The translations under genes were made by a program, and so were the position numbers. A stretch of DNA of 64,000 bases from Saprospiraceae bacterium (GTDB taxonomy: Bacteria > Bacteroidota > Bacteroidia > Chitinophagales > Saprospiraceae): the NCBI GenBank assembly GCA_022841745.1, contig JALHQW010000020.1:1-64000 (forward strand). Direction: 5' to 3'. Below are positions 1 through 55,759 of the stretch, one piece after another (position 1 is the stretch's first letter; each line of letters opens with the position of its first letter). Below the pieces are notes generated by a model. It made no database searches. It was given only the letters and a program-made list of their open reading frames with translations, and was not told the DNA's origin.

Positions 1-1154
1 GGGTCGTCAACGAGCGCACGGAAGCCCTTGGCGGCAGTACCCTGACCATTTACGACCCGGACGCTCCCAATGCTGAATTCCTGCAGCGGGTGGACGGCAA
101 CGCCTGGCACTTCATGTCGCTGCCGACGGGCATTGCCTTCAGCGACAATTTCAACTTCGCCACCTCCCCGGGAGTCCAGGATGCCAACCATAATGGCGGC
201 ACCTTCACAGGCCCCGCCCTCTGGTCGAGCGACGCCGATATTTATGCCCAACCTTCCGGCGGTAATGGCAGCCACCTCGACATGCTGCACGGCAGCCCGT
301 TCAGCATGGGCGTCGCCAGCGAAGGGGACAACGCGTTCTGGGTCTTCGACGGCTGGAACGAGACCATCGTGCGCTATGACTTCAAGGGCGACCACGGCCC
401 CGGCAACGACGACCACGCCAACGGCATCGTGCGCCGCTACACGGAGATACAGGTAAAAAAGGACGGGTTCGTGCCGAGCCACCTTGTGCTGGACAAAGCC
501 ACGGGCTGGCTCTACGTCGTGGACAACGGCAACGACCGGGTACTGCGCCTCGACATCAACTCCGGCAGCGTCGTCAACACGTTGCCAAACATCAACGAGC
601 CGCTGGCAGAGCATTCCGAAATGGGCGGGGTGACTTGGGAGGTCATCGTGCAGGACAGCATCGAGCGGCCCTGCGGCATCGAGGTCATGGGCAACCGCCT
701 CCTCGTTGGCGACTACGCTTCCGGCGACATTTACATTTATGACCTCGAAAACGGCTTCGCCGAACTGGGGCGCATTGCCACCGGGCAAGCGGGCCTGACG
801 GGCATCAAAGTAGGGCCTGACGGTGCCATCTGGTTCACCAACCGCCTGCAAAACAGCCTGACGAAAGTAGTGCCCGGCGAAGTCAGCGCCACCGGGGAGC
901 AGGCTTGGGAAAGCCATCTTTCCGTATCGCCGAACCCCACCTCCGGCAGCTTGCTGGTGCGCCTGCCTGAATTGCCCACAGGCAACGAGGTTTTGTTGGA
1001 GATTTCCGATTTGACGGGGAGAAAACTTTTGACAGAAAAGAGCGGCGCGCAAGTTCACCAATTCAACCTTGGCAATCTTTCCAGCGGTATTTACCTGCTG
1101 TCCATTCGGAGTGGGGCGTTTTTTGCCACCCGGAAGGTTGTTTTGGAAAAATAA
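1..1154 (+). CDS. Secreted beta-propeller (NHL/SMP-30-like) protein with T9SS sorting domain, 5' end missing
   Basis: The reading frame is open from base 3, so the N-terminus lies upstream and the internal GTG at 90 is not the real start. The visible part has repeated motifs typical of beta-propeller blades: a WVFDGWNETIVRYD segment, then LYVVDNGNDRVLRLD, LLVGDYASGDIYIYD and GPDGAIWFTN. This fits an NHL/SMP-30-type propeller. The last ~75 residues (SVSPNPTSG, then ISDLTGRKL, then LSSGIYLLSI and a basic VVLEK end) are a canonical T9SS type A sorting domain, so the protein should be exported and attached at the cell surface or released. It lies just upstream of an MbnP-like gene. Its ligand or enzymatic role cannot be read from the sequence. 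Confidence 0.8.
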   Translation, partial: VVNERTEALGGSTLTIYDPDAPNAEFLQRVDGNAWHFMSLPTGIAFSDNFNFATSPGVQDANHNGGTFTGPALWSSDADIYAQPSGGNGSHLDMLHGSPFSMGVASEGDNAFWVFDGWNETIVRYDFKGDHGPGNDDHANGIVRRYTEIQVKKDGFVPSHLVLDKATGWLYVVDNGNDRVLRLDINSGSVVNTLPNINEPLAEHSEMGGVTWEVIVQDSIERPCGIEVMGNRLLVGDYASGDIYIYDLENGFAELGRIATGQAGLTGIKVGPDGAIWFTNRLQNSLTKVVPGEVSATGEQAWESHLSVSPNPTSGSLLVRLPELPTGNEVLLEISDLTGRKLLTEKSGAQVHQFNLGNLSSGIYLLSIRSGAFFATRKVVLEK

Positions 1155-1161
1155 AATCTCA

Positions 1162-1196
1162 TGCTGCGCCGCCGTGCGAAACGTGGCGGCGCAGCA
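1162..1196. terminator. Perfect 12-bp GC-rich hairpin after the beta-propeller gene
   Basis: TGCTGCGCCGCC (1162-1173) and GGCGGCGCAGCA (1185-1196) are perfect inverted repeats with an 11-nt loop, 8 bases after the stop codon. No U-tract follows, so it may be a weak terminator or an mRNA-stabilising stem-loop. It also argues against an upstream start for the next gene at 1161. Confidence 0.55.
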
Positions 1197-1235
1197 AATA
1201 GCAAATCCATTTTCAAAATTCAAAACCCAATTTTT

Positions 1236-2213
1236 ATGAAGAACAGATTTTTACATTTCCTTCTCCTTTCGCTGCTTGCCAATGGGCTTTTTGCCCAAAT
1301 GGACGTGGCGCTGCACCTGCACCCGAAGCTGGGCGACCAGTCCTTTGCGCTCAACACGACGGCGACCGCCGAGATGGGCTACCCCTTCCGGGTCACCCGC
1401 CTGCAGTATTATGTCAGTGAAATCAAACTCGTCCACGATGGCGGGCAGGTGACGCCCGTGACCGACCTCTACCTGCTGGTGACGGCGCAAAAGGACAGCA
1501 TCTTTGAGCTTGGTAGCTTCCCGGTGACGACCATCGAGGGCATCGAGTTCAGCATCGGCGTGGACGCCGCCCACAACCACCTCGACCCGGCGAGCTACGC
1601 CAACGACCACCCGCTGGCACCGAAAAACCCCTCCATGCAATGGGGCTGGTCGGCGGGCTACCGCTTCATCGCTTTGGAGGGCAAGACGAGCAACAACGGC
1701 GGCACTTCCTTCCCTGATGTGTTCCAAGTGCATACCATTGACGATGCCAACTACCAGAACCTCAGTATTCCCGTGGAGGGTGTAATGGACGGCGGCCACT
1801 TGGCCATCAACCTCGACGCAAACTACCACCACATCCTCGCTGAACTTGACGTGACTGGCGGTGTGACCTCCCACGCAGCCACGGGCGCTTCCGCCACCAT
1901 TGCGGAGAACATGAAGAACCATGTGTTCACGCCCTCCGTCGTGAGCGGCGTGACCGAGCCGGGCGTTGCCGGCACGTTTGGCATTTCGCCTAACCCGACA
2001 AATGGCAGCGCCACGCTTCGCTACGACCTGCCCGGCTACGAGCAACTAACACTGACGGTGAGCGACCTCGCCGGAAGGACGGTTTTGACGAAGGAACTGA
2101 GCGGCTCGGCGCAGTCGGTTTCGTTGGAAACGGACTGGCAGCCGGGGATTTATGTTGCCCGGATTTTTAGCGGGGACAAGTATTTGGCACTTGAAAAACT
2201 CGTAGTGAAATAA
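1236..2213 (+). CDS. mbnP: MbnP-like copper-binding protein with T9SS sorting domain
   Basis: 325 aa. The ATG at 1236 gives a clean signal peptide (MKNRFLHFLLLSLLANGLFAQ). Family features of MbnP-like proteins are visible: FRVTRLQYYVSEIKL (51-65), GVDAAHNH...DHPLAP (109-129) and the Trp-rich MQWGWSAGYRFIALEG (134-149). In methanotrophs MbnP is a periplasmic copper protein in which a tryptophan is converted to kynurenine by the di-haem partner MbnH, creating a Cu(I) site. Here a di-haem CcP/MauG-family gene follows 35 bp downstream, matching that pairing. Residues ~250-325 (FGISPNPTNG...ISDLAGR-type...GIYVARI) are a T9SS type A sorting domain, so this homologue is probably surface-exposed rather than only periplasmic. 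Family call is confident; copper binding is inferred. Confidence 0.8.
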   Translation: MKNRFLHFLLLSLLANGLFAQMDVALHLHPKLGDQSFALNTTATAEMGYPFRVTRLQYYVSEIKLVHDGGQVTPVTDLYLLVTAQKDSIFELGSFPVTTIEGIEFSIGVDAAHNHLDPASYANDHPLAPKNPSMQWGWSAGYRFIALEGKTSNNGGTSFPDVFQVHTIDDANYQNLSIPVEGVMDGGHLAINLDANYHHILAELDVTGGVTSHAATGASATIAENMKNHVFTPSVVSGVTEPGVAGTFGISPNPTNGSATLRYDLPGYEQLTLTVSDLAGRTVLTKELSGSAQSVSLETDWQPGIYVARIFSGDKYLALEKLVVK

Positions 2214-2248
2214 ATAACTGGAAAGGCTTGTAAAACAACATCGCAAAA

Positions 2249-3253
2249 GTGAAAAACAGCTTTTTGCTCATAACCTGCCTGCTCCTTTTCTCCTGCAAAA
2301 AAGAGCAGTCCGAACCGTCCGCCGAGCCACTGCTTGCCGTGCCGGAGGGCTTTCCTGCGCCCGTTTTTCCCGAAGGGAACGAACTGACTCAGGAGCGGTG
2401 GGCATTGGGCAAAAGGTTGTTTTTCGACCCCATCCTGTCCAGTGACCGCACGGTTTCCTGTGCTTCGTGCCACCTGCCGGAAATGGCGTTTACCGATGGA
2501 AAGCAGTTCAGCGAGGGCGTGGACGGAAGGCTCGGAAATCGCAATGCGCCGACACTCGCCAATGTCGCTTACCACCCGTATTATACGAGGGAGGGCGGCG
2601 TGCCGACGCTGGAAATGCAAATCCTCGTGCCGATACAGGAACACGCCGAATTCGACATGAACATCCTCGACATTGCGGAGCGGCTGAACGCCGACAGCAG
2701 CTATGTGAGGGAGAGCCGGGCAGCTTACGACCGGGTGCCCGACGCTTTCGTCATCACTCGTTCGATTGCCTGTTTCGAGCGCACGATGTTGAGCGGCAAC
2801 TCGCCCTACGACCAGTATTTGCAGGGAAAAACCAATGTGTTGACGGCGGCGGAGCGGCGGGGGATGGACTTGTTTTTTGGTGAAAAAACCAACTGCTCAC
2901 AATGCCACGGCGGATTTAACTTTACCAACTATGCTTTCGAAAACAATGGGCTTTACGAAGACTACCCCGACCCCGGCCGCTTCCGGCTGACGGGCGACGA
3001 AGCAGACCGGGCGCTGTTCAAGGTGCCGACGCTGCGCAATGTGGGCGTGACCGCACCCTATATGCACGATGGCTCGCTGCCGACACTGGAGTCAGTGATA
3101 GAACATTACAATTCAGGCGGAAAAAACCACCCGCACAAGAGCGGGTTGGTGAAGCCGCTCGGCTTGACGGCGGCGGAACGGGCTGACCTCGCGGCATTTT
3201 TGGAAAGCCTGACGGACGACGATTTTTTGAACAATCCTAAGTTTAAGAAATAA
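2249..3253 (+). CDS. mbnH: Di-haem cytochrome c peroxidase/MauG family lipoprotein, probable MbnH partner
   Basis: 334 aa from a GTG start that gives a lipoprotein signal (LLLFSC, Cys16). Two c-type haem sites are present: CASCH (71-75) and CSQCH (216-220). The C-terminal PYMHDGSLPTLESVIEHYN (270-288) is typical of the CcpA/MauG superfamily. The position immediately after the MbnP-like gene suggests it modifies that protein (Trp to kynurenine) as MbnH does, rather than acting as a plain H2O2 scavenger. Being lipid-anchored, it would act in the periplasm or outer leaflet. An ordinary cytochrome c peroxidase is the alternative, since MbnH and CcP cannot be separated by eye. Confidence 0.8.
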   Translation: MKNSFLLITCLLLFSCKKEQSEPSAEPLLAVPEGFPAPVFPEGNELTQERWALGKRLFFDPILSSDRTVSCASCHLPEMAFTDGKQFSEGVDGRLGNRNAPTLANVAYHPYYTREGGVPTLEMQILVPIQEHAEFDMNILDIAERLNADSSYVRESRAAYDRVPDAFVITRSIACFERTMLSGNSPYDQYLQGKTNVLTAAERRGMDLFFGEKTNCSQCHGGFNFTNYAFENNGLYEDYPDPGRFRLTGDEADRALFKVPTLRNVGVTAPYMHDGSLPTLESVIEHYNSGGKNHPHKSGLVKPLGLTAAERADLAAFLESLTDDDFLNNPKFKK

Positions 3254-3262
3254 CCGAATGGC

Positions 3263-3958
3263 ATGATAAATCAGGAACTTGAAAAACTATACAATACTCA
3301 TAAAAGCAACCTGACCGGGCTGTTCGATGATGAATTTGACGGTCCTTTATTGATGTATTGCTGGGAGGAAGAATTTAAGGCTTCCGATTACAAAATCCTT
3401 TTTGTTGGCAAAGAGCTAAATGGCTGGATTGGGTATTTTGCTGATGACATTGATTTACTGCGGAAGCGATATGAAGACTTCGGGCTATGCACACAAGAAG
3501 GAAGTAACAGAAATTCAAGGCTTTGGAAATACATGTACGACTTTAATTCAAGGTTAAATCCTGCTTGCGAAGGCAAGAAAAACTTCATGTGGACGAATGT
3601 ATCGAAATGCTGTACTTGGAAAGGAAAAGGCTTGGATTGGGAAAGCCATCAAAAAATAGTCGCCAACTTCAATGTGCTTGAATGCGAAATAAAAATCCTC
3701 CAACCGGATGTGATTATCTTCTTCACCGGGCCCTATTACGATGACAAAATAAGAATTCAAATCACCGATGATTTGGTCTTCAGGCAAGTGGTAGAGCATA
3801 TTCCTTCGAGAGAACTGGCGCGGCTGGAAAACATCAATCTGCCTTATTTCACTTACAGGTTGTATCACCCGGATTACATGGACATTTACAAACCGGACAA
3901 AAGGAGCCACCTCGACATCATTGAAAATGAAATAAAAACTGTCAACGTGAAGGCATAA
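3263..3958 (+). CDS. Protein of unknown function, possibly uracil-DNA-glycosylase-fold
   Basis: 231 aa, no signal peptide or membrane segment, so cytoplasmic. Segments resemble the uracil-DNA glycosylase superfamily: KILFVGKELNGW (~44-55; cf. the VGxxPG loop), MWTNVSKCC, ILQPDVIIFFTGPYY (~148-162; cf. a strand followed by G) and a late YHPDY (cf. the H-P-S motif). The match is partial and I do not assign an activity. Base composition is clearly more AT-rich than the GC-rich genes on either side. It sits between two di-haem peroxidase genes, where a cytoplasmic DNA-type protein is out of place, so it is probably a separate insertion. Confidence 0.6.
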   Translation: MINQELEKLYNTHKSNLTGLFDDEFDGPLLMYCWEEEFKASDYKILFVGKELNGWIGYFADDIDLLRKRYEDFGLCTQEGSNRNSRLWKYMYDFNSRLNPACEGKKNFMWTNVSKCCTWKGKGLDWESHQKIVANFNVLECEIKILQPDVIIFFTGPYYDDKIRIQITDDLVFRQVVEHIPSRELARLENINLPYFTYRLYHPDYMDIYKPDKRSHLDIIENEIKTVNVKA

Positions 3959-3993
3959 TGCTGGCTCACAATTCAAAAAAACAATCAAGTAAA

Positions 3994-5073
3994 ATGAAAA
4001 AAATAATCCTCGTTTTTTTTGCCATCGCAGCCCTGATGGTAGCCTGCGACCCCGACGACGACACGGTGAAAGCCGTCTATGACCCCACGCCCTACGCCCT
4101 TGATTATGGCGAGTTCCCAGACCCAGACATTCCTGCCGACAACGTGCCGACAGTCGCCGGGGTGCAGTTGGGGCGGATGCTTTTTTATGAAAAGCAATTG
4201 TCGAAGGACGGCTCACAGTCCTGCGCCGATTGCCATTTGCAAAAGGACGGGTTCAGCGACATACGGCAGTTCAGCCTCGGCGTGGAGCAGTTGCCGGGCA
4301 AGCGGCAGGCGATGGCGGTGTTCAACCTCGCCTGGCACAAGAACGGGATGTTCTGGGACGGTCGGGTGCCAAAGGTGAGAGACCAAGCCTTGAAGCCAAT
4401 CCAAGACCCGCTGGAAATGAACGAGACCCTCGAAAACGCCGTCGCCAAACTCAAAGCGGACAAGCGCTACACCGACCAGTTCATCCGGGCGTTCGGCGAC
4501 GATAACATTACCTCGGAGCGCATGGGGCTGGCGATGGAGCAGTTCGAGTTCACGATGGTTTCCAACAAATCAAAGTACGACCGCTACCTCGCCGGAACGG
4601 AAGCGCTGACGGACAGCGAAGAGCGTGGGCGGGTGCTGTTCTTTGCCGAGTTCGACCCTTTCAGTGGTCAGAAGGGCGGCGAGTGCTTCCATTGCCACGG
4701 CGGCTTCAACTTCACCAACGACGAGTACATGAACAACGGCTTGGATGAGGAAGCAAATTTCACGGACGATGGTCGCTCGAAAGTGACCAACAACCCGGCG
4801 GACAGGGCTAAGTTCAAAGTGACGAGCCTGCGGAACATCGCCATCACCCCGCCCTACATGCACGATGGGCGCTTTGCGACACTGGAACAGGTCATTGAGC
4901 ACTACAACACAGGCGTGAGGAACTCGCCGACCGTGGATGGGCTGCTTTTCAACAATCTCAATCCAGGCGGCTTGCAGCTAACAGACCAAGACAAGGCTGA
5001 CCTCGTGGCTTTCCTAAAGACGCTGACGGATGTGTCTTTTCTGGAGGATGAGCGGTTTTCGAGTCCGTTTTAA
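3994..5073 (+). CDS. Di-haem cytochrome c peroxidase lipoprotein
   Basis: 359 aa. The start at 3994 is chosen because it begins the lipoprotein signal MKKIILVFFAIAALMVAC (Cys18); the frame is open back to 3958. Haem motifs are CADCH (77-81) and CFHCH (231-235). FWDGRVPKVRDQALKPI and DPLEMN (120-143) and PYMHDGRFATLEQVIEHYN are CcpA/MauG signatures. Expected to be a periplasmic lipid-anchored peroxidase reducing H2O2 with electrons from small cytochromes, or a MauG-like oxidase. It is a paralogue of the 2249-3253 product, with the EM dipeptide of the classical family retained here but not there. Confidence 0.85.
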   Translation: MKKIILVFFAIAALMVACDPDDDTVKAVYDPTPYALDYGEFPDPDIPADNVPTVAGVQLGRMLFYEKQLSKDGSQSCADCHLQKDGFSDIRQFSLGVEQLPGKRQAMAVFNLAWHKNGMFWDGRVPKVRDQALKPIQDPLEMNETLENAVAKLKADKRYTDQFIRAFGDDNITSERMGLAMEQFEFTMVSNKSKYDRYLAGTEALTDSEERGRVLFFAEFDPFSGQKGGECFHCHGGFNFTNDEYMNNGLDEEANFTDDGRSKVTNNPADRAKFKVTSLRNIAITPPYMHDGRFATLEQVIEHYNTGVRNSPTVDGLLFNNLNPGGLQLTDQDKADLVAFLKTLTDVSFLEDERFSSPF

Positions 5074-5089
5074 AATTGAGTTGGGTGAT

Positions 5090-5151
5090 AATGAGGGCGG
5101 CTGAGTCGCTTCGCTGCGCCTATTTTTAAGAGTGCCGACCCTCATTTTTTT
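5090..5151 (+). terminator. Probable rho-independent terminator after the second peroxidase
   Basis: AATGAGGG (5090-5097) pairs with CCCTCATT (5139-5146), followed by a run of T. The long loop contains further GC-rich pairing potential (GGC with GCC). It lies 17 bp after the stop codon of the peroxidase gene. Confidence 0.55.
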
Positions 5152-5235
5152 CAAGGGGTGGGTTTTTGACCAAATTTTTAAACCGGGCGACAGGCTCGAC
5201 ACTTGCCGCCTTTCATTCTTTAAATTTTCAAACTT

Positions 5236-5661
5236 ATGAAATCCATGTTCAAAACATTGCCGATTTGCTTGCTGCTGGCAGGCGCATTCCTGCTGGCGGG
5301 ATGCCAGAAGGAAGAATTGCCGAAAAATGCTGATGCCATTTACGTCAAATTCGTCAACAAGGCGGGCGCCAACCTAACGGGGCTTGCCGTGAGCCGACTG
5401 GAAGTGGAAGACTTGTCGAAGGGCAAGTCATCGGGCTACCTGCGCTACGAGTCGCTGGGCGAGCAGTTCCAGTATGCGTTGGTGGACGCCACCTGCATGA
5501 TGAACGGAAAAAGGTATTACCGGTCGTCCGCTTGCAGCGGCATCTGTGGCACATCGTCCGCGCCCAACGGCAAATGGCTGGACAAAGGATATTACAAAGT
5601 GGTCATCACCAAGTCGAACGAACTTGGCGGCAACTACCTTGATTTCAGGCTTTCAAACTAA
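5236..5661 (+). CDS. Small lipoprotein of unknown function
   Basis: 141 aa with a clear lipoprotein signal (FLLAGC, Cys23). The mature part is short and beta-rich in appearance (YVKFVNKAGANLTGL, YYKVVITKSNELGGNYLDFRL). It has four mature cysteines, two in the cluster SSACSGICGTSS, which could form disulfides. No known family recognised. It stands alone, after a terminator-like hairpin. Confidence 0.7.
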   Translation: MKSMFKTLPICLLLAGAFLLAGCQKEELPKNADAIYVKFVNKAGANLTGLAVSRLEVEDLSKGKSSGYLRYESLGEQFQYALVDATCMMNGKRYYRSSACSGICGTSSAPNGKWLDKGYYKVVITKSNELGGNYLDFRLSN

Positions 5662-5755
5662 ATTTTATACCTGTTGCTGATTGTTCGGGTTGCTCCTCTG
5701 ATAAAGGCAGACAGCATCGTTCAACGCATAATTGTTTGACCAAAAATCAATAGTC

Positions 5756-6199
5756 ATGTGCGCTAAAAAAATCTTTCAGTACACGTTTTACCCGTTCAGG
5801 AAGCTAACGGACAAAGCAGCCATAAGAGCCACGACCCTAATAATGCTGGTATGCTCGGCAATCGGGCTATCAGCCCAATCGGACGCCAATACGATATTGG
5901 GCAAATGGGAGAACAGCGAGCGGGGTCATGTCGTGGAGGTGGTTCAGCAAGGGGATACCTACTCCGCCAGCATACTTCAATCGGAAAAAGCGGGTGAAAC
6001 CGGTAAGCGAGTAGCTTGGGGATTGCGCTTCGACTCAAAGGAAAAGGAATGGGCTGGTGGAGAAGTACAGTTGCCGAAAATGAAGCACTCAGCAAGTTGC
6101 TATGCGACCCTTAAAGGCAACGACACACTCATCATCACCGGATACCACGGCTTTCGGTTTTTGGGCAGTTCCAAGACTTTTAAGCGGGTGAAGGCCTAA
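5756..6199 (+). CDS. DUF2147-family secreted protein
   Basis: 147 aa from the ATG at 5756 (the frame extends to a TTG at 5732). The hydrophobic segment AAIRATTLIMLVCSAIGLSAQ is a signal peptide preceded by a basic, aromatic-rich N-region. The mature part has the DUF2147 pattern: ILGKWENSERGHVVEVVQQGDTYSASI, then VAWGLRFDSKEKEWAGGEV and a C-terminal GYHGFRFLGSSKTFKRV. Such proteins are small secreted beta-barrel-like domains of unknown function common in Bacteroidota. Confidence 0.75.
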   Translation: MCAKKIFQYTFYPFRKLTDKAAIRATTLIMLVCSAIGLSAQSDANTILGKWENSERGHVVEVVQQGDTYSASILQSEKAGETGKRVAWGLRFDSKEKEWAGGEVQLPKMKHSASCYATLKGNDTLIITGYHGFRFLGSSKTFKRVKA

Positions 6200-6225
6200 G
6201 GATTGTTCACTTCAAAATGCTTATT

Positions 6226-6891
6226 ATGAAAACGGTTATTAACACCACAACCACCCATGTCCCGGCGCTACGCTTCAACTGGCTCACCGGGTTCTACGAC
6301 CGCCTGATAGCGGCGACCATGCCTGAAAGGGCATTCAAGATGGCGCTCGTCCAGCAGGCTGGCATCCGTCCTGGCGACCAAGTGCTCGACTTCGGAACGG
6401 GAACAGCTACCCTGTCCATATTGCTTGCCGAACAACACCCTGACGCCGATGTGAAGGGCGTGGACGTGGACGAAAAAGTGTTGTCTATCGCCCGCAGGAA
6501 GGTCGAAGAGAGCAGTGCCGCTGTGCGATTGGTGCGGTACGACGGAAATAAACTGCCGTTTGAGTCCCGCACCTTCGACCGGGCGGTATCGTCGTTGGTG
6601 TTCCACCACCTGACCCGTTCGCAGCGCCAGCAGGCTTTGAGAGAGCTGAACCGGGTACTCGTGCCGGGTGGCGAAGTGCATATTGCCGATTGGGGTAAGC
6701 CTGCCAACGGCTTGCAACGGCTATTGTTTTACCTTGTGCAACTGCTCGACGGGTTCGAGACGACTGCTGACAGTGTCCGGGGCATCTTGCCGGAAATGCT
6801 TTATGAGGCGGGCTTCGATAATGTGGAGGAGACAGGGAAGTACAAGACCGTTTTCGGGACGCTGCGGATGTGGCGCTGCACGAAATGGTAA
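6226..6891 (+). CDS. Class I SAM-dependent methyltransferase
   Basis: 221 aa from ATG 6226 (a second ATG at 6217 is possible). Motif I VLDFGTGTATLSILLAE (53-69) and the acidic VKGVDVDEKVLSIARRK bind S-adenosylmethionine. VRLVRYDGNKLPFESRTFDRAVSSLVFHHL is the UbiE/Methyltransf_11 motif II-III region and LNRVLVPGGEVHIADWG is the post-motif strand. The substrate is not determinable. Ten bp downstream begins a broken Crp/Fnr gene, so the two may once have been co-transcribed. Confidence 0.8.
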   Translation: MKTVINTTTTHVPALRFNWLTGFYDRLIAATMPERAFKMALVQQAGIRPGDQVLDFGTGTATLSILLAEQHPDADVKGVDVDEKVLSIARRKVEESSAAVRLVRYDGNKLPFESRTFDRAVSSLVFHHLTRSQRQQALRELNRVLVPGGEVHIADWGKPANGLQRLLFYLVQLLDGFETTADSVRGILPEMLYEAGFDNVEETGKYKTVFGTLRMWRCTKW

Positions 6892-6900
6892 TAGAATCTT

Positions 6901-7578
6901 ATGCGCCGAAAATTGGACAACCATGAATTAAAGCAGACGGGGCTTTGGGACAGCCTGACTGACGGCGACCGGGAGTCGTTTTTGTACTGGGCATACGTTC
7001 AAGACCTTGCGAAGTGGTATATTTTGTTCCATGAGGGTGAGAAGGGGGATGAAGTATTCGTGTTGGTTTCGGGGAAAGTACAGCTTTTGCAGGATGTGGG
7101 CGAGAACAATGAAACCACCGTCCACCTCGCCCGACCGGGCGAGGTGCTGGGGGAAAGGCTGTTGACGGGCGCAATGCACTATAACTGACGGGCGGAGACG
7201 CTGGAGGACAGCACGGTGATCGTGCTTCCGGCATCCATTTTTTCGCAAATCCTGCAAAGAAGCCCAAAGGCGGCTTGGCATTTTTACCAGTCGCTGCTGT
7301 TGCGCCTGCAAAAAACGGAGCAACGGATGCTGCACTTCCGCTACAACCGCACGGAAAACCGCATCCGGCTTTTTCTGACGGATTGGGTAAGGGAGGAGGG
7401 TAGGCAGTTGGCAACGGGCGAGTGGGAGATAACCTCAATGCTGACCCACAGTATGATTGCCAGTTTGTCCAACTCGTCGAGGCAGTATGTGACGGATTTT
7501 TTGAACGCCTTGCGAAAGCAAGGTGTCCTGCGCTATGACCGACGTCGAATGGTCATCCAGCGGCTGGACTTGTTGTGA
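6901..7578 (+). pseudogene. Crp/Fnr-family regulator interrupted by an in-frame TGA
   Basis: A single reading frame (226 codons including the stop) encodes an entire Crp/Fnr protein: cyclic-nucleotide-binding domain with ILFHEGEKGDEVFVLVSGKV and HLARPGEVLGERLL, a dimerisation helix, then a winged-HTH (HSMIASLSNSSRQYVTDFLNALRKQGVLRYD). It is cut only by TGA at 7186-7188, between MHYN and RAETLEDST. The intact paralogue at 55008 has VYEYRAETATEST at the same place, so the stop replaces one internal residue without any frame change. Both halves look otherwise undamaged, so the mutation is recent, or it is a sequencing or assembly error. TGA is an ordinary stop elsewhere in this window, so recoding is unlikely. 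Confidence 0.8.
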
Positions 7579-7653: not shown

Positions 7654-8517
7654 ATGTCCATGAAAAAACTCCCTGTTTTCTTCCTCTTGGCTGCGAGTGT
7701 ACTCGCCCTTTCTTTTTGGATGGAAAGCCCCTGCGACTCGCCACTCGTCGGCGGGCACACGGGCGCACCTGGCGAGACGGGCTGCGACGGCTGTCACGGC
7801 GGGACGCCCAACACCGGACCCGGTACGCTCACCCTTGACTGGTCAGACACCAGCGGGCATTACGTTCCCGGTCAGGTCTATGATGCCATTGTCACCCTCG
7901 AACAAGCCGACCGGGACAAACTCGGCTTCGTGGCATTGGCGTTGAAAGACAGCGGCAACACCACCACCGGGCAGTTTTCGATTGACGATGCCGACCGCAC
8001 ACGGACGTTCAGCGATGGTCCCCGAAAGTACGTCTCGCACACGCCCTGCGGGGCTGATGCTGTTCCGTCTGGCTCTTTATCCTGGACGTTTCATTGGCAG
8101 GCGCCCGCTACCGATGTGGGAGCCGTCACGATTTATCTGGCAGGGCTTGCCGCCAACCACAATCACAATACATCCGGCGACGACGCTTACGAACTGACAT
8201 TGCACCTCACGCCTGCGGACTCAGTCGCTTCGGCGAGCGGGGAGCGCTTCGATAAAGCTGCGTTTTCCCTGCACCCGAACCCGGTTTTGGCAGGCGGACA
8301 ATTGAACGTCCGGCTGACGCTGCCAAAGGCGGGCAGGCTTGAGTTTCGGCTGTTGGATGTGGCGGGTCGGGCGGTACGCAGTTTTGATTTTGGGGAGAAG
8401 GGGGCAGGTGAGCAAATGTCCTTACTGGACTTGGCTGGCTTGGGTAGTGGGGTTTATTTTCTGGAAGCATCCCTGGCGGGCAGGGAACTGGCTGTGGAAA
8501 AAATCCTATTGCGTTGA
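7654..8517 (+). CDS. Choice-of-anchor V domain protein with haem-like CxxCH and T9SS sorting domain (copy 1)
   Basis: 287 aa (or 285 from ATG 7660). Signal peptide MKKLPVFFLLAASVLALSF. The mature start HTGAPGETGCDGCHGG (33-48 from the second Met) matches the choice-of-anchor V domain, whose conserved CxxCH could bind haem c or metal. A beta-sandwich Reeler-like domain follows, then a T9SS type A sorting domain (SLHPNPVLAGG...LLDVAGRAV...GSGVYFLEA). A very close paralogue lies at 21374-22231 in the same orientation; residues ~24-190 are nearly identical. Function unknown; a surface redox or metal-binding role is inference from the CDGCH and the neighbours. Confidence 0.8.
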   Translation: MSMKKLPVFFLLAASVLALSFWMESPCDSPLVGGHTGAPGETGCDGCHGGTPNTGPGTLTLDWSDTSGHYVPGQVYDAIVTLEQADRDKLGFVALALKDSGNTTTGQFSIDDADRTRTFSDGPRKYVSHTPCGADAVPSGSLSWTFHWQAPATDVGAVTIYLAGLAANHNHNTSGDDAYELTLHLTPADSVASASGERFDKAAFSLHPNPVLAGGQLNVRLTLPKAGRLEFRLLDVAGRAVRSFDFGEKGAGEQMSLLDLAGLGSGVYFLEASLAGRELAVEKILLR

Positions 8518-18994: not shown

Positions 18995-19607
18995 CAAAAG
19001 CTGATTGCCAACCCTGGTCATACTCTTCCTTTCAAAAAATCAATCCTTTCCCGCCACGGCAGGCAACCATTTCGGGCATTCCGTTGAACAGTAAGGTGCA
19101 GCACAAGCCAATTATGAGATTAGAAGACAAAATAGACAAAGCGAGGTTCAGGGCAGCCGCCTGGCTTGCCAATTGGCTGAAGGTCTTCGGCTATGGAGGA
19201 ACTGCCAGCGCCCTGTTGACGGCTAACGAGCGCTTCGTTTGTCCGCTCTGCGCATTGCTCCGGGCTATGCGTCGGAAGAATCCCCGACTGGTCGCCCGTT
19301 TTTCCAAATTTTGTGCGACCTGCATGGAGGCGGTTCGAGGCAACGGACGAACGGTTTTGTACTGCATCGTCTGCGTTTTGAGGGCAGCCAGAACCCGGTG
19401 CTTGTTGGCTGATTTGTACGTCCTTGAAATATGGAGCCACCAGAAAATCCCGATTTTCCTGCGGAATCAGCAATGGCGGAATTGAGGCGACGACCTTGCC
19501 ATGACCCTGAATTTCGTCGGGGAGACCCCCTTCCACGAAGCGGGTTCACGAATATTTTTCCTCACGCAACGGTCTTGACCGCTGTCATTTCAAAATTAAT
19601 TCAACGC
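18995..19607. other. 613-bp region without a confident gene, downstream of rloAB
   Basis: No protein family could be recognised on either strand. One + frame from ATG 19114 to 19485 and two - strand frames in the same stretch are open, but none has convincing composition or a clear ribosome-binding site. The content may be decayed coding sequence left at the edge of the defence cassette. The last ~30 bp form the upstream region of the multicopper oxidase gene. Confidence 0.4.
19114..19485 (+). CDS. Doubtful small Cys-rich hypothetical protein
   Basis: 123 aa from ATG 19114 (or 133 from 19084). The start MRLEDKIDKARFRAAAWLANWLKVFGYGG could be an amphipathic helix. Cys pairs occur in VCPLCALL, KFCATCMEAV and YCIVCVLRA, which could bind zinc or metal. 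The high Arg/Leu/Ala content and overlapping open frames on the other strand make an accidental reading frame just as likely. Confidence 0.25.
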   Translation: MRLEDKIDKARFRAAAWLANWLKVFGYGGTASALLTANERFVCPLCALLRAMRRKNPRLVARFSKFCATCMEAVRGNGRTVLYCIVCVLRAARTRCLLADLYVLEIWSHQKIPIFLRNQQWRN

Positions 19608-21305
19608 ATGAAATCCATACTCAAACAATTGGTTTGCTGCGGCTTCGCCGCAATCACCGTTCCGGCATTTGCCCAAACGCCCGTTCCCATCCCGCCCACG
19701 CTGTCGGGCAACACGATTGACCTGACCGTACAGCACGGCACGACCGAAATCTACCCCGGTTTTGCTACCAATACGGTCGGCTACAACGGCAGCTTCCTCG
19801 GCCCGACCATCCTGCTCGATGCCGGGCAGCAGGTCACGCTCAACGTCCACAACCAGCTTGGCGACACCACGACCGTGCATTGGCACGGCTTGAACGTGTC
19901 GCCCGCCAACGATGGCAGCCCGCACGTGATGATTATGGCGGACGAGACTTGGTCGCCCTCCTTTCCCGTGCTGGACAAAGCTGCCACGTACTGGTACCAC
20001 CCGCACCTGCACGGCAAGACGATGGACCAGGTACTGCTCGGCGCTGCGGGCTTTATCTTCGTACGGGACGCCGAGGAAGCCGCCCTCGACCTGCCCCGCA
20101 CCTACGGCACGGACGACGTGCCGCTGGTGTTCCAGTTCAAAACCTTCGATGCTGACAAGCAAATCATGATGGAGGACGAAATGGACAACGCCGTGCTGGT
20201 GAACGGCGTGGTGGACGGGGTGCTGAACAGCCCGGCGCAGGTGGTTCGCTACCGCCTGCTCAACGGCTCCAGCCACCGTTTCTTCAACTTCGGCTTCTCC
20301 AACAACAAGCAGTTCAAGCAGATCGCCTCCGATGCCGGGCTGCTCGATGCGCCCGTTGCCCTGACCCGCCTCATCCTCGCCCCCGGCGAGCGGGCAGAAA
20401 TCCTCGTGGACTTGGGCAACGAACAGGGCAACACGCTGACGCTGAAATCCTTCGGAACGGAACTGCCGCAGGGCTTCCCCGGCGGCACGATGATGATGGG
20501 CGGCATGGAAGGTCCGCTCGACGATACCGACTTTTCGGTACTGACCATCCACGTCGGAGCGCCGACCAACGACCCCGTGACGACCGTCCCGACCGCCCTC
20601 ACCACCAACGAGGTGCTGTCGCAAACGGGCGCTGCGACCCGCTCGATTGGCTTCTCCGCACAGCCGATGATGAGCATGACGAATTTTTTCATCAACAATA
20701 AGAAGTTCGACATGGAGGAGGTGGAGTTCACCACCGAGCAGGACAAGGTGGAGGTCTGGAACATCACGAACCAGACCATGATGGCGCACCCGTTCCATAT
20801 CCACGGCAACCATTTCTATGTGCTGCAAGTGAACGGCGCAACCCCGCCGCCCAACATGCGGGGCAGGAAGGACGTGGTGGTGGTGCCGCCGATGAACGGC
20901 AGCGTGAAGCTCGTGACGAGGTACGAAAACTATGGCGACCCGATGCTGCCGTATATGTTCCATTGCCATATCCTCAGCCACGAGGACGGCGGCATGATGG
21001 GGCAGTTCATCGTGAACCCGACCGCCAGCGCCACGACGGATTTGGAGCAACAAGGTTCGCTGACCATCTCGCCGAACCCCGGCAAGGGCAATTTTGTCAT
21101 CGAGGCGGATTTGCCGCAGGCGGGCGACGCCACGCTGACGCTCCATTCTTCGGACGGCAGGCTGCTGGAAACGAGGAAGCTGGAAGGGCTGAACACGGGC
21201 ATCCAACAAATCCCGGCGAATTTCACGGGTCTGGCGGCTGGCTGGTACTGGCTGACCTTGCAGCGTGGGGAGCGGGTGTTTTCGGGGAAGGTGGTGGTGG
21301 AATAG
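19608..21305 (+). CDS. Multicopper oxidase with T9SS sorting domain
   Basis: 565 aa from ATG 19608 with signal peptide (LVCCGFAAITVPAFAQ). All four copper-ligand motifs are present: HWHG (91-94), HPHLHG (131-136), HPFHIHG (394-400) and HCHILSHEDGGMMG (452-465), giving a type 1 site plus a trinuclear cluster. The layout matches CueO/FtsP/CotA-type three-domain oxidases; the Met-rich stretch GGTMMMGGMEG (~292-302) recalls the Met-rich loops of cuprous oxidases. Residues ~484-565 (SLTISPNPGKG...GLAAGWYWLTL...VVVE) are a T9SS sorting domain, so it is exported to the surface. Probable Cu(I) or phenol/metal oxidase supporting copper tolerance. Confidence 0.9.
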   Translation: MKSILKQLVCCGFAAITVPAFAQTPVPIPPTLSGNTIDLTVQHGTTEIYPGFATNTVGYNGSFLGPTILLDAGQQVTLNVHNQLGDTTTVHWHGLNVSPANDGSPHVMIMADETWSPSFPVLDKAATYWYHPHLHGKTMDQVLLGAAGFIFVRDAEEAALDLPRTYGTDDVPLVFQFKTFDADKQIMMEDEMDNAVLVNGVVDGVLNSPAQVVRYRLLNGSSHRFFNFGFSNNKQFKQIASDAGLLDAPVALTRLILAPGERAEILVDLGNEQGNTLTLKSFGTELPQGFPGGTMMMGGMEGPLDDTDFSVLTIHVGAPTNDPVTTVPTALTTNEVLSQTGAATRSIGFSAQPMMSMTNFFINNKKFDMEEVEFTTEQDKVEVWNITNQTMMAHPFHIHGNHFYVLQVNGATPPPNMRGRKDVVVVPPMNGSVKLVTRYENYGDPMLPYMFHCHILSHEDGGMMGQFIVNPTASATTDLEQQGSLTISPNPGKGNFVIEADLPQAGDATLTLHSSDGRLLETRKLEGLNTGIQQIPANFTGLAAGWYWLTLQRGERVFSGKVVVE

Positions 21306-21373: not shown

Positions 21374-22231
21374 ATGAAAAAACTCCCTGTCGTACTTTTC
21401 CTGTTGGCGGTGCTGCTCGCCCTTTCTTTTTTGACCGAAGGGCCTTGCGACTCGCCCCTCGTCGGCGGTCACACGGGCGCACCCGGCGAAACGGGCTGCG
21501 ACGGCTGCCACGGCGGAACGCCCAACACCGGCCCTGGTACGCTTACCCTCGACTGGTCGGACACCAGCGGGCATTACGTCCCCGGTCAGGTGTACGATGC
21601 CGTCGTGACGCTCGCCCAAGCCGACAGGGACAAGTTCGGTTTCGTGGCGCTGGCACTCAAGGACAGCGGCAATACCACCACCGGGCAGTTTTCGATTGAC
21701 GACGCTGACCGCACCCGCACCTTCAACGATGGCCCCCGGAAGTACGTCTCGCACACGTCCTGCGGTGCAGATGCCGCTCCCCTCGGTTCGCTGTCGTGGA
21801 CTTTCCATTGGCAAGCGCCAGCTACCGACGTGGGAGCCGTCACAATTTATCTGGCAGGGCTTGCCGCCAACCACAACCACGCCACCTCTGGCGACGACGC
21901 CTATGAACTGGCACTGCACCTCACGCCCGCCGACACGGTGGCTTCTGCGAGCGGGGAGCGCCTCGACGAGGCTGCGTTTTCCCTGCACCCAAACCCAGTT
22001 TCGGCAGGTGGGCTATTGAATGTCCGGCTGATGATGCCGCAGGTGGGAAGGCTGCAATTCTTGCTCCTCGACGTGGCGGGGCGGACGGTGCGCCGTTTTG
22101 ATTTGGGCGAAAAAGCAACGGGCAATCAGATGTTTGAACTGGAAACGGCTGGTTTGGCGGCAGGGGTATATTCCCTAGAGGCCCGCCTGTCGGGAGAGTG
22201 GCTTGGTGCTGCAAGGGTGGTGGTGGAGTGA
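21374..22231 (+). CDS. Choice-of-anchor V domain protein with CxxCH and T9SS sorting domain (copy 2)
   Basis: 285 aa. Signal peptide, then the same HTGAPGETGCDGCHGGTPNTG motif as copy 1 at 7654. The anchor V domain is nearly identical to copy 1 at protein level and very similar in DNA, while the signal peptide and the T9SS sorting domain (SLHPNPVSAGG...LLDVAGRTVRRF...GVYSLEA) have diverged more. It begins 17 bp after the oxidase terminator. The CxxCH may hold haem c; if so it could pass electrons to or from the neighbouring oxidases, which is inference. Confidence 0.8.
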   Translation: MKKLPVVLFLLAVLLALSFLTEGPCDSPLVGGHTGAPGETGCDGCHGGTPNTGPGTLTLDWSDTSGHYVPGQVYDAVVTLAQADRDKFGFVALALKDSGNTTTGQFSIDDADRTRTFNDGPRKYVSHTSCGADAAPLGSLSWTFHWQAPATDVGAVTIYLAGLAANHNHATSGDDAYELALHLTPADTVASASGERLDEAAFSLHPNPVSAGGLLNVRLMMPQVGRLQFLLLDVAGRTVRRFDLGEKATGNQMFELETAGLAAGVYSLEARLSGEWLGAARVVVE

Positions 22232-22264: not shown

Positions 22265-22693
22265 ATGAAAATTCGACATTCACTGGTTGGTTCTGCTTTC
22301 GCCTTCCTGCTGGCGACGAGTTGCTGCTGGCTGCAGTTTGTGGCAGTGGCCTTGGGTGGAGCAGCTGGGCTGTCGGCGCTTTCGGTGGGGCTGGAAAAAT
22401 ACAGCGGATTGCTCATGGTTTTGGGCATCGGGCTGGCAGGTTGGGCTGGCTGGCTTTTTTGGCAAAAAAGAAAATCCAGACAATCGGGCAGCATCGTTTT
22501 GCAGAGCCTACTTACTTGCCCAAACTGTGGATTTCAAAAAGAGGAAACCATGCCCACGGATGCTTGTCGGTTTTTCTACGAGTGTGAAAACTGCCACGTT
22601 ATGCTTCGCCCCAAAGCGGGTGACTGTTGTGTATTTTGCAGTTTTGGCTCGGTTAAATGCCCGCCGATACAGCAGGGGCAAGGCTGCTGTTAA
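22265..22693 (+). CDS. GDCCVxC-domain membrane protein with MerT-like N-terminus
   Basis: 142 aa. Two TM helices occupy ~10-38 and ~48-66; the first carries SCCWLQ, like the vicinal-Cys helix of the mercuric transporter MerT. The soluble C-terminal part has CPNCGF (85-90), CENCHVML (107-114) and the diagnostic GDCCVFCSFGSVKCPPIQ (119-136), ending CC. This is the Bacteroidota GDCCVxC family found in heavy-metal loci. The cysteines probably shuttle a soft metal (Cu, Hg, Cd) across the inner membrane. It sits directly in front of a CopB-type ATPase. Confidence 0.8.
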   Translation: MKIRHSLVGSAFAFLLATSCCWLQFVAVALGGAAGLSALSVGLEKYSGLLMVLGIGLAGWAGWLFWQKRKSRQSGSIVLQSLLTCPNCGFQKEETMPTDACRFFYECENCHVMLRPKAGDCCVFCSFGSVKCPPIQQGQGCC

Positions 22694-22713
22694 CACTGAT
22701 TTCAATTTCAAAT

Positions 22714-24771
22714 ATGGAACATCAACACCACCAACACGGGCAAGCCGCAGTGCCGCCCGCTAAGGCACATGAGCACGGCAAGCAAGCACCGCCCGCAGGC
22801 GGACATGCCGACCATGCCGCCCACCACGACCATTCCGCCATGATTGGCGACTTCCTTCGCCGCTTCTGGGTCTGTCTGGCGCTGACCGTTCCAGTCGTTT
22901 TCATCTCGCCCATGTTCCAACACGCTGTCGGGTACAGCTTCGATTTTCCCGGCAGGAACTGGGTCTCGTTTGCCCTAGGAACCATCATTTTCATTTACGG
23001 CGGCAAGCCGTTCCTGACGGGGCTGTTGGATGAACTGCGCCGCCGCTCGCCCGGCATGATGACGCTCATCGGCGTCGCCATTTCCGTCGCCTATCTGTAC
23101 AGCACGGCGGTCGTCTTCCGGCTGGTGGCGGGCATGGATTTCTACTGGGAACTGGCCACGCTCATCGTCATCATGCTGTTGGGGCATTGGCTCGAAATGA
23201 AAAGCGTCGCCGGGGCATCGAAGGCGCTGGAAATGATTGTGAAAATGCTGCCTGCCGAAGCCCACATGTATCACGGCGAAATGCTCCACGACATGCGGGT
23301 GGACGAACTCAAAATCGGCGACCTGGTGCTGGTGAAGCCCGGCGAAAAAATCCCGGTGGATGGCACGGTGACGGAAGGCGAAAGCCTCGTGGACGAGAGC
23401 ATGTTGACGGGCGAAAGCGTTCCCGTGAAAAAATCGCCCGGCTCGAAAATCATCGCTGGTGCGCTCAACGGCGAGGGCAGCCTGAAAGCCACGGTCGACA
23501 AAGTTGGCAAGGAAAGTTACCTGAACAAAGTCATCACGATGGTGCAGGAGGCGCAGGCTGCCAAGTCGCAGACCCAACTCCTGGCAGACCGTGCTGCCCG
23601 CTGGCTCACGTTCATCTCCATCGGCGTGGGCGTAACGACGCTGGCGGTCTGGCTGGCAAAAGGGCAGGGGCTGGCATTTGCCTTGGAGCGCATGGTGACG
23701 GTCATGGTCACTGCCTGCCCCCATGCCCTCGGCGTGGCAATACCGCTAGTGGTGGCGATTTCGACCGCCATGAGCGCCCGGCGTGGCTTGCTCATCCGCA
23801 ACCGCACGGCATTCGAGAGCGCCCGCAAAATCACGGCAATGGTGTTCGACAAGACCGGGACGCTGACGGAAGGCAAGTTCGGCGTGTCGAGGGTCGAGCC
23901 GCTGGACGGCGCCCGCTCTGCGGACGACCTGCTGGCGCTCACTGCCGCCCTCGAACAGCACAGCGAACACCCGATTGCCAAAGGCATCGTGCGGGCGGCG
24001 AATGAAAAATACCTGGCACTGCCCGCCATTTCCAATTTTTCCTCCATAACCGGGAAGGGCATTCAGGGCGATGTTTCCGGCAAAAAAATAAACGTGGTCA
24101 GCCCCGGTTATTTGCTTGAAAAAGACATTGCACAGCCGAAAAACGCAGTCGGAAATGCTGCCGAGACAGTGGTTTTTGTGTTGGAGAATGAAAAGCTGGT
24201 GGGCTTCATTGCCCTTGCCGACCAAATCCGACCGGACGCCAAAACTGCCGTCGAGGATTTGAAAAAACAGGGAATCAAGGTCTTCATGGCGACGGGCGAC
24301 AACGAGCGGGTGGGCAAGGCGGTGGCAGAAGCATTGGGCTTGGATGGCTACTACGCCGAGGTGCTGCCGCACGAGAAAGTGGACATCGTGAAAAGCCTCC
24401 AAAAGAAAGGCGAGTTCGTTGCCATGACGGGCGACGGCGTGAACGACGCCCCGGCACTGGCTCAGGCAGACGTGGGCATCGCCGTCGGCAGCGGCACGGA
24501 CATCGCCGCCGAAACCGCTGACATCATCCTCACGGAAAGCCGTCCTTCCGACGTGCTGGGCTTGGTCAATTTCGGCAAAGCCACCTATCGGAAAATGGTG
24601 CAGAACCTGCTCTGGGCAACGGGCTACAACGTGTTCGCCATCCCGTTGGCGGCGGGGGTTTTGTACCCAACTTTTACTTTGAGTCCGGCGCTGGGGGCAG
24701 TACTGATGGCACTGAGCACGGTGGTGGTGGCGTTGAATGCGCAGTTGCTGAAGTCGGCACTTCAAAAATGA
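22714..24771 (+). CDS. copB: CopB-type (P1B-3) copper-translocating P-type ATPase
   Basis: 685 aa from ATG 22714. The N-terminus (1-44) is His-rich (MEHQHHQHGQ...HADHAAHHDHS) instead of carrying an HMA domain. Actuator motif LTGESVP (231-237), metal-site CPH in TACPHALGVAIPL (Cys335-Pro-His337), phosphorylation DKTGT (379-383), SEHPIAKGIV (HP motif) and GDGVNDAPALAQADVGIAVGSGTD hinge are all present. The CPH motif marks the CopB (P1B-3) subgroup, which exports copper, in contrast to the CPC of CopA. It pumps copper from the cytoplasm to the periplasm, where the RND systems downstream can take over. Confidence 0.9.
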   Translation: MEHQHHQHGQAAVPPAKAHEHGKQAPPAGGHADHAAHHDHSAMIGDFLRRFWVCLALTVPVVFISPMFQHAVGYSFDFPGRNWVSFALGTIIFIYGGKPFLTGLLDELRRRSPGMMTLIGVAISVAYLYSTAVVFRLVAGMDFYWELATLIVIMLLGHWLEMKSVAGASKALEMIVKMLPAEAHMYHGEMLHDMRVDELKIGDLVLVKPGEKIPVDGTVTEGESLVDESMLTGESVPVKKSPGSKIIAGALNGEGSLKATVDKVGKESYLNKVITMVQEAQAAKSQTQLLADRAARWLTFISIGVGVTTLAVWLAKGQGLAFALERMVTVMVTACPHALGVAIPLVVAISTAMSARRGLLIRNRTAFESARKITAMVFDKTGTLTEGKFGVSRVEPLDGARSADDLLALTAALEQHSEHPIAKGIVRAANEKYLALPAISNFSSITGKGIQGDVSGKKINVVSPGYLLEKDIAQPKNAVGNAAETVVFVLENEKLVGFIALADQIRPDAKTAVEDLKKQGIKVFMATGDNERVGKAVAEALGLDGYYAEVLPHEKVDIVKSLQKKGEFVAMTGDGVNDAPALAQADVGIAVGSGTDIAAETADIILTESRPSDVLGLVNFGKATYRKMVQNLLWATGYNVFAIPLAAGVLYPTFTLSPALGAVLMALSTVVVALNAQLLKSALQK

Positions 24772-55730: not shown

Positions 55731-55738
55731 CATCTTTG
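55731..55738 (+). promoter_or_regulatory. -7 promoter-like element upstream of the DUF1111 operon
   Basis: CATCTTTG (7 of 8 to TAnnTTTG) at 55731-55738 is 21 bp before the ATG. No -33 TTG at the proper distance, as expected for an activator-dependent promoter. Confidence 0.4.
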
Positions 55739-55759
55739 CATGACCAAACTTTTTGTCTC

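Follow-up and report, generated by a model that had tools for sequence, protein, structure and literature searches.

Does the start of a contig from a Saprospiraceae bacterium (GenBank assembly GCA_022841745.1, contig JALHQW010000020.1) encode a copper system of the MbnP/MbnH kind, and if so, which enzyme would act on the copper protein, and where in the cell would that protein work? The window, that is, the whole stretch of 64,000 nucleotides analysed here, carries a gene for an MbnP-like protein with a T9SS tail and, directly after it, a gene for a di-haem enzyme (D1), a pair singled out by a first-pass annotation. That annotation mentioned neither a second di-haem enzyme gene further downstream (D2) nor the loss of the inter-haem Trp in D1. 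The features referred to below, all on the forward strand, are as follows.

3..1154, +: upstream protein, truncated by the contig start, that carries a T9SS tail and weakly matches the beta-propeller model Vgb_lyase
1236..2213, +: T9SS-tailed MbnP-like protein, 325 aa, with the MbnP domain at residues 23-207 and the T9SS type A tail at residues 250-325
1635..1649, +: codons of M134-Q135-W136-G137-W138 (the WxW motif), W136 aligned to the leading Trp of the 7L6G WNW
2249..3253, +: D1, an MbnH-like di-haem lipoprotein, 334 aa, with C71ASCH, C216SQCH, axial-type Y287 and Arg114
2588..2620, +: D1 signature REGGVPTLEMQ (Arg114 onward)
3958..5073, +: D2, the other MbnH-like di-haem lipoprotein (listed length 371 aa), with Trp133 in FWDGR, Y316, and CDPDDD after the lipobox
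19431..21305, +: multicopper oxidase with a T9SS-like tail of 23.1 bits (Pfam cut-off 27), the nearest downstream copper-type gene, not adjacent
22657..24771, +: P-type ATPase (E1-E2_ATPase), copper type by our own reading of its CPH motif, with no specific model

The MbnP-like protein and its predicted export

The MbnP open reading frame starts with ATG at 1236 and stops at 2213. Its product scores 118.1 bits against PF20243 (MbnP) over residues 23-207 (Pfam cut-off 27), and the tail at residues 250-325 matches both PF18962 (29.1 bits, cut-off 27) and TIGR04183 (35.8 bits, cut-off 23), so that the annotated union of an MbnP Trp core with a T9SS type A tail stands, all three models being over their cut-offs. 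The NCBI equivalog model for MbnP, TIGR04052, gives 49.7 bits, under its curated cut-off of 140, and for this reason we call the protein MbnP-like and not an equivalog. The 7L6G entry is titled after a four-Cys motif, which is absent here, the 325-aa translation holding no Cys at all, and a phmmer search of the PDB with the window protein returned no MbnP match, just a T9SS tail. A profile of 23 PF20243 proteins matches 7L6G, the MbnP of Methylosinus trichosporium (E 1.5e-8). With an AlphaFold model made from a 23-protein PF20243 alignment (mean pLDDT 85.9), the top six Foldseek matches in the PDB are the six chains of 7L6G (best E 2.4e-7, TM 0.42-0.47), the best match after them having E 8.7e-5. 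W136 and W138 sit in PSMQWGWSAGYRF, within residues 134-140, where the annotation had suggested looking for the modified Trp; they do align with the WNW of 7L6G, M134, W136 and W138 falling on MAWNW and H166 on the His of VHVG in the profile alignment. The WGW loop is the worst-modelled part of the protein (pLDDT ~54 in block 131-140). In MbnP, the Cu(I) site is reportedly made of a His, a Met and a kynurenine formed from the first Trp of WxW, and we take M134, W136 and H166 to be the counterparts of these ligands.

PF20243 was found in 97 of 395 Bacteroidota genomes, and 113 stretches around above-cut-off matches were taken from this phylum draw, plus those of the window's own genome, a partial match at a contig end (G192:C31) being left out. 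A contig scan with the 13 T9SS-tailed MbnPs of the draw found 309 stretches encoding a relative, of which the best 80 were used, ranked by how closely they resemble the complete query sequence with its tail. Both sets together form a T9SS group of 96 MbnPs at 92 loci, one locus (L232, a copy of L143) having been dropped. M134, W136, G137 and W138 are present in 96/96 members of this group and H166 in 95/96 (best 80 of 309 included); among 109 other MbnPs, the Met is present in 85, the two Trp in 105 and 93, and the His in 106. WGW belonged to the search pattern for the scan-set loci and is present there by construction; in the phylum draw, which is independent of that pattern, it occurs in 13/13 T9SS-tailed MbnPs (12 genomes, the window's giving two). 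Three additional His mark the T9SS group (best 80 of 309 included) vs the other MbnPs: H67 (91/96 vs 1/109), H135 (89/96 vs 9/109, Gln in the window protein) and H213 (96/96 vs 2/109). Tails were called with our own profile, built with those of the 13 draw proteins, and by eye in four cases (L140 and L161 as tailed, L113 and L114 as without tail). The profile finds a tail in 83/84 WGW MbnPs of the scan set (best 80 of 309 stretches), L209 having none by this measure yet being counted among the 96, and TIGR04183 matches 10/13 T9SS-tailed MbnPs of the draw (E up to 0.01).

The genome of the window encodes the T9SS, with SprA at 2225 bits and the PorU sortase at 1260 bits; to our knowledge, this system is confined to Bacteroidota. 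A sorting domain, a signal peptide judged by eye (ending LFA/Q, without a lipobox) and the T9SS genes together mark the MbnP-like protein as a predicted T9SS type A substrate. By a simple pattern, a lipobox is present in 12/84 scan-set MbnPs (best 80 of 309) vs 88/107 other MbnPs, and in 77/82 D1s and 66/79 D2s (best 80 of 309 included, with L232, the copy of L143, still in these D1 and D2 tallies and in those for the acidic stretch). Acidic residues after the lipobox Cys form a lipoprotein export signal in Bacteroidetes, according to one study (PMC5080379). At least two such residues follow the Cys in 54/66 D2s and 27/77 D1s (best 80 of 309 included), in 30/78 other di-haem lipoproteins and in 60/89 lipoprotein MbnPs; the strict form C-x-K-(D/E)2 is rare (13 D2s and 5 D1s, best 80 of 309 included, and one other di-haem lipoprotein). 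Since the acidic stretch is frequent in D2 and in lipoprotein MbnPs, D2 and the ordinary lipoprotein MbnPs of Bacteroidota may both lie outside the cell; in D1 it is not above other di-haem lipoproteins, and we therefore make no such claim for D1. Ordinary Bacteroidota MbnPs being perhaps surface lipoproteins themselves, the view of the first-pass annotation that surface exposure would be a different use of the system finds no support as worded.

Two di-haem enzymes beside the MbnP-like gene

D1 runs from a GTG start at 2249 to 3253, 35 bases from the MbnP open reading frame, and has a CCP_MauG match of 164.5 bits, haem motifs CASCH (C71-H75) and CSQCH (C216-H220) and, by eye, a lipobox Cys16. 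The MbnH model TIGR04039 gives 297 bits, below its curated cut-off of 362.85, vs 198 bits for the MauG model TIGR03791. By sequence, the closest PDB entry is MbnH 6E1C (226.9 bits), followed by cytochrome c peroxidases at 142 and lower and MauG at 77 and lower; a fold search returned 6E1C first (E 2.8e-21), with a Shewanella peroxidase (7.5e-14) and MauG (4.9e-12) behind it, the predicted model used being poor (no haem, mean pLDDT 72.7, weak around residue 114). Y287 aligns with the Tyr of MbnH and with the axial Met of the Nitrosomonas peroxidase 1IQC, a column that holds Tyr in 120 and Phe in 11 of 131 aligned di-haem enzymes. With its lipobox, Tyr ligand and closest match to 6E1C, the gene next to MbnP is indeed of the annotated MbnH/MauG lipoprotein type. 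The proposed comparison by HMM and AlphaFold model bears out kinship with 7L6G and 6E1C, at scores under the TIGR04052 and TIGR04039 cut-offs.

A tree was made by a quick method, with SH-aLRT support alone, from 26/82 D1s, 24/79 D2s, 44/108 other enzymes, L166, MbnH and four bacterial cytochrome c peroxidase references, MauG and BthA being left out. The peroxidases stand apart (support 100), D2 forms a single clade of its own (99), and D1 occupies one side of a branch (90), beside MbnH (87), a placing that is tentative because MbnH's own branch is long (1.41). By model scores, PDB matches, fold and tree, D1 is nearer MbnH than either MauG or the cytochrome c peroxidases (branch support 87 only, in this tree without MauG). 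The annotation named two outcomes that would speak against its reading, and neither was observed: D1 does not group with the four peroxidase references, and both Trp of WxW are there. We rejected a cytochrome c peroxidase (CcpA) identity for D1 on the PDB matches, the fold search, Tyr in place of Met at the 6-coordinate haem, and the tree.

At the inter-haem column, the 131 enzymes have Trp in 98, Arg in 13, Tyr in 11, Ala in 4, Phe in 2, Leu in 2 and His in one. Twelve of the 13 Arg belong to D1s adjoining a T9SS-tailed MbnP, the thirteenth (L110) lying elsewhere on the tree, and L166 (Phe) is the sole T9SS-MbnP locus of the draw without Arg. Among D1s counted by motif (best 80 of 309 included, L232, the copy of L143, still counted), Arg is present in 81/83, Lys in one (L234) and Thr in one (L195). 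The placing of Arg on the Trp column draws on the 131-sequence alignment, the Trp of 1IQC and a D1-D2 profile-profile alignment, in which hhalign sets Arg114 on Trp133; in an ungapped alignment to MbnH alone, T113 would match its Trp, MbnH being one residue longer after that Trp. Judged from these alignments, it is certain that the D1 column holds something other than Trp, and likely that Arg stands at exactly that position.

D2 scores 249.7 bits against TIGR04039, below the cut-off of 362.85, and has Y316, invariant in 12 rows, and the inter-haem-type Trp133. A second cluster copy lies on the same contig as the window's, and its D2 starts at the equivalent of 3994. An open reading frame between D1 and D2 (3263-3958) has a uracil-DNA-glycosylase match under the cut-off and is missing in this second copy.

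The gene set across Bacteroidota and its metal-gene neighbours

D1 and D2 were assigned by motif, inside the stretch examined per locus. Across the 92 T9SS-MbnP loci (best 80 of 309 included), D1 is found at 82 and D2 at 78: all three genes at 70, D1 without D2 at 12, D2 without D1 at 8, and neither at 2. The pairing with a D1-type enzyme noted in the window thus goes beyond chance. In six of the 22 incomplete loci, every MbnP has <2.3 kb of downstream sequence, whereas in the other 16 at least one MbnP has ~3 kb or more (best 80 of 309 included), so that contig ends leave most of the absences unexplained; the three-gene set is often, not always, complete. Gene order varies (MbnP-D1-D2 at 60 loci, MbnP-D2-D1 at 9, D2-MbnP-D1 at one, best 80 of 309 included), and the keeping of content while order changes argues for MbnP, D1 and D2 acting together. 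We rejected D1 alone as 'MbnH', given a second enzyme at 70/92 loci (best 80 of 309 included) and the inter-haem Trp gone.

The scan set (best 80 of 309) spans Saprospiraceae, Flavobacteriales, Cryomorphaceae, Chitinophagales and others, and named carriers are Edaphocola flava HME-24, E. aurantiacus H2 and Phaeocystidibacter luteus LMG 25704. To check the linkage independently of MbnP, the 395 genomes were scanned with a DNA pattern for the D1 signature; it occurs at 9 places in 8 genomes, all within ~1 kb of a T9SS-MbnP motif, being strict enough to miss the D1s of G059, G232 and G109. The MbnP-motif pattern occurs at 15 places in 14 of these genomes, of which 12 are T9SS-MbnPs of the draw and the others a lipoprotein MbnP (G041:C16), the partial G192:C31, and G249. 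At one locus, L125, D2 follows a lipoprotein MbnP that has WGW, and D1 follows a T9SS-MbnP; this arrangement points to two MbnP/enzyme pairs as the likely origin of the cassette.

Metal-type genes were counted as multicopper oxidase, RND, P-type ATPase, HMA and HYC_CC_PP. One lies within 3.5 kb at 50/92 T9SS loci (best 80 of 309 included) vs 3/109 other MbnP loci, a comparison biased toward T9SS loci, from whose neighbours the HYC_CC_PP and HMA profiles were made. Without HYC_CC_PP the counts are 27/92 vs 2/109, and without HMA as well 17/92 vs 2/109 (best 80 of 309 included in both); the RND and P-type queries were window proteins read by us as copper types, Pfam giving ACR_tran and E1-E2_ATPase only. 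The unbiased draw has a metal-type gene within 3.5 kb at just 2/13 T9SS loci. Of the copper exporters that the first-pass annotation had placed downstream, the metal context holds in relatives but not close to the window copy, whose nearest downstream copper-type genes are the multicopper oxidase at 19.4 kb and the P-type ATPase at 22.7 kb. No metal-type gene lies within 3.5 kb of the window copy on its visible side, the upstream side being out of view because the contig starts 1.2 kb upstream of MbnP; upstream of the second cluster copy lie genes for a multicopper oxidase and an HMA protein. Relatives of the upstream protein, of which L023 has a full copy, occur near the cassette at 15/93 loci (best 80 of 309 included).

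A candidate copper site, its proposed maturation and its known relatives

From the families, folds, motif alignment, gene linkage and metal-gene neighbourhood in many relatives obtained here, we infer Trp oxidation, copper binding, a division of enzyme roles, export and location. The reading we favour, to which we give slightly better than even chances, is oxidation of W136 by D1, D2 or both, and copper binding by the MbnP-like protein at the cell surface. The protein would enter the periplasm by Sec and be carried by the T9SS across the outer membrane, to be anchored on the surface. D1, the most likely oxidising enzyme because its gene directly follows MbnP and it lies beside MbnH on the tree, would oxidise W136, the leading Trp of WGW. 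The product, probably kynurenine, would form the Cu(I) site together with M134 and H166. D2, with its relay Trp, would join the same maturation or support D1, and the loaded protein would hold copper extracellularly, for storage, detoxification or uptake. Counter to this run the missing inter-haem Trp of D1, the scores under the TIGR04039 and TIGR04052 cut-offs, the 2/13 metal-type neighbourhoods of the unbiased draw and the lack of any on the visible side of the window copy, the 22/92 incomplete loci (best 80 of 309 included), and the poor modelling of the WGW loop and of D1 around residue 114. Arg at the relay position nonetheless does not exclude bis-Fe(IV)-type chemistry in D1, because BthA, with Ser257 in place of Trp, forms bis-Fe(IV) and requires its Tyr ligand (PMC6405878).

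D2 might instead be the enzyme that modifies the Trp, with D1, devoid of the relay Trp, as an accessory or peroxidase partner. D2 retains FWDGR and the Tyr, is more conserved (63% mean column identity over 12 rows vs 48% over 13 rows for D1), directly follows a lipoprotein MbnP with WGW at L125, and occurs without detected D1 at 8/92 loci (best 80 of 309 included), 7 of which hold at least 3 kb downstream of an MbnP. We nevertheless regard this as improbable, if the strongest competitor: the D1 signature was seen solely beside T9SS-MbnPs among 395 genomes, D1 sits beside MbnH on the tree, D1 occurs without detected D2 at 12/92 loci (best 80 of 309 included), and the BthA precedent (PMC6405878) weighs in the same direction. 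That both enzymes are peroxidases against copper-driven hydrogen peroxide, beside an unmodified MbnP that binds copper passively, would fit the CCP_MauG fold, the metal-type neighbours and E134, in our own judgement a putative distal Glu, kept in 13/13 rows of the D1 alignment. It seems the least probable of the alternatives, given Tyr instead of Met at the axial position of both enzymes, the peroxidase references apart on the tree (support 100) and a WxW, needless for a passive site, in 13/13 T9SS-tailed MbnPs of the draw.

The T9SS-tailed clade might also have shifted to a different site, with H67, H213 and mostly H135 forming another metal site, or with a product other than kynurenine. The enrichment of these His in the T9SS group (best 80 of 309 included) and the presence of two enzymes instead of one agree with such a shift, whereas the Met/Trp/His set aligned with 7L6G is retained and H135 is Gln in the window, and we consider it unlikely. 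A bolder version of the favoured reading, which we hold to be equally unlikely, is that D1, sister to MbnH and with Arg for the relay Trp, and D2 oxidise both Trp of WGW, either successively or one ahead of export and the other after it, to give a doubly modified surface copper site, perhaps with extra His ligands.

MbnP/MbnH of M. trichosporium (7L6G, 6E1C) share with the cassette the fold, WxW with a preceding Met and a following His, an adjacent di-haem enzyme with Tyr, and the copper context. The cassette differs in adding a T9SS tail, a second di-haem enzyme and extra conserved His, in lacking Cys in MbnP and the inter-haem Trp in D1, and in scoring under the TIGR04052 and TIGR04039 cut-offs. 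MbnB (TIGR04159) has no match in the window's genome, which by this criterion has no methanobactin operon; MbnP/MbnH pairs extend far past methanobactin producers (PMC3621798). A copper protein beside a di-haem enzyme is likewise found in MopE/SACCP of Methylococcus capsulatus and CorA/CorB of Methylomicrobium album, which differ from the cassette in a copper site of two His and kynurenine, in a single di-haem enzyme and in that the T9SS is uninvolved. MopE is secreted, CorA is on the cell surface, SACCP itself is surface-located with MopE, and the kynurenine comes from Trp (PMC3621798, PMC3912023), while the MopE and CorA sequences are described as not markedly similar to MbnP (PMC3621798). 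Surface location by itself is therefore not new, and on this count too the annotated contrast with the methanotroph system finds no support as worded.

Like D1, BthA of Burkholderia thailandensis is a di-haem enzyme with a Tyr ligand and no inter-haem Trp, with Ser257, not Arg; we know of no MbnP partner of BthA. In MauG, the inter-haem Trp mediates charge sharing. MauG, which has Trp93 (PMC6405878), resembles the cassette enzymes in its Tyr-ligated haem and in the oxidation of a partner-protein Trp proposed for them, but it is a weaker match to D1 and its partner is methylamine dehydrogenase. Other PF20243 MbnP and di-haem pairs in Bacteroidota have the same family and the same adjacency, and differ in a mostly lipoprotein MbnP, other di-haem clades and metal-type neighbours at 3/109 loci.

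Kynurenine copper sites have been described in a few methanotrophs, and we know of no earlier instance in which one substrate is matured by two MauG-superfamily enzymes, nor of a Trp-derived copper site on T9SS cargo. A literature search, mostly among papers outside subscription, yielded nothing on a T9SS-exported MbnP or a two-enzyme cassette, which is weak evidence. The three-gene set looks like a new, widespread form of the MbnP/MbnH copper system in Bacteroidota, and its surprising part is the two-enzyme design, with one enzyme lacking the relay Trp. If the reading we favour is true, kynurenine copper chemistry would extend to many Bacteroidota, tied to the T9SS, and nature would provide, next to a shared substrate, pairs of enzymes of which one has the inter-haem Trp and the other lacks it, so that the extent to which long-range Trp oxidation needs this Trp, the question posed by BthA, could be tested directly.

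Duplication of the cluster and a possible ancestral pairing of its genes

The contig carries the cluster of T9SS-tailed MbnP and the two MbnH-like di-haem lipoproteins, D1 and D2, two times, and the copies are 85-93% identical over four pieces in the comparison of the window with L023 (L-numbers denote DNA stretches fetched around MbnP genes).

Cluster copies
Copy 1: window 1-7571 and 19084-19789
Copy 2: L023 5301-12405 (contig C20 106000-118404)

Compared with the other copy, the one in the window contains one more ORF between D1 and D2 (3263-3958); in L023 the equivalent of window position 7571 joins directly to that of 19084. Consecutive genes at L125 2175-5971 encode a lipoprotein MbnP with the WGW motif, D2, T9SS-tailed MbnP and D1, a four-gene row that possibly represents an ancestral double pair.

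Residues at the inter-haem Trp column

The MbnP partners of L081, L088, L090-L092, L096, L102, L103, L107 and L108 have Tyr at the inter-haem Trp column, and other partners have Phe, Ala, Leu or His; apparently, the MbnP partners in Bacteroidota have lost this Trp on several occasions. A di-haem enzyme of another family is also encoded in the window.

DHOR di-haem enzyme (PF06537, 235.7 bits): window 55736-56962

Recurrent neighbours and other proteins with T9SS or T9SS-like tails

Two families recur beside the cassette: a small His/Cys-rich protein, whose representative matches HYC_CC_PP (NF047658), at 32 of 93 loci, and a T9SS-tailed protein with weak beta-propeller matches (15/93). Also found were a choice-of-anchor V protein that bears both a T9SS-like tail and a CDGCH motif, present in the window as two copies (80.6% identical in DNA), and multicopper oxidases with T9SS-like tails, scoring 23 bits each, below Pfam's 27.

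Neighbouring proteins and proteins with T9SS-like tails
His/Cys-rich small protein, example: L217 5344-5814, plus 31 further loci
T9SS-tailed, weak beta-propeller family, examples: L023 4268-6454; L179 8591-10672
Choice-of-anchor V protein, copies: window 7654-8517 and 21374-22231
Multicopper oxidases: window 19431-21305; L210 8232-9914

The CDGCH-containing protein is possibly a haem-bearing surface protein, and the multicopper oxidases represent a second copper protein that may take the same export route as MbnP.
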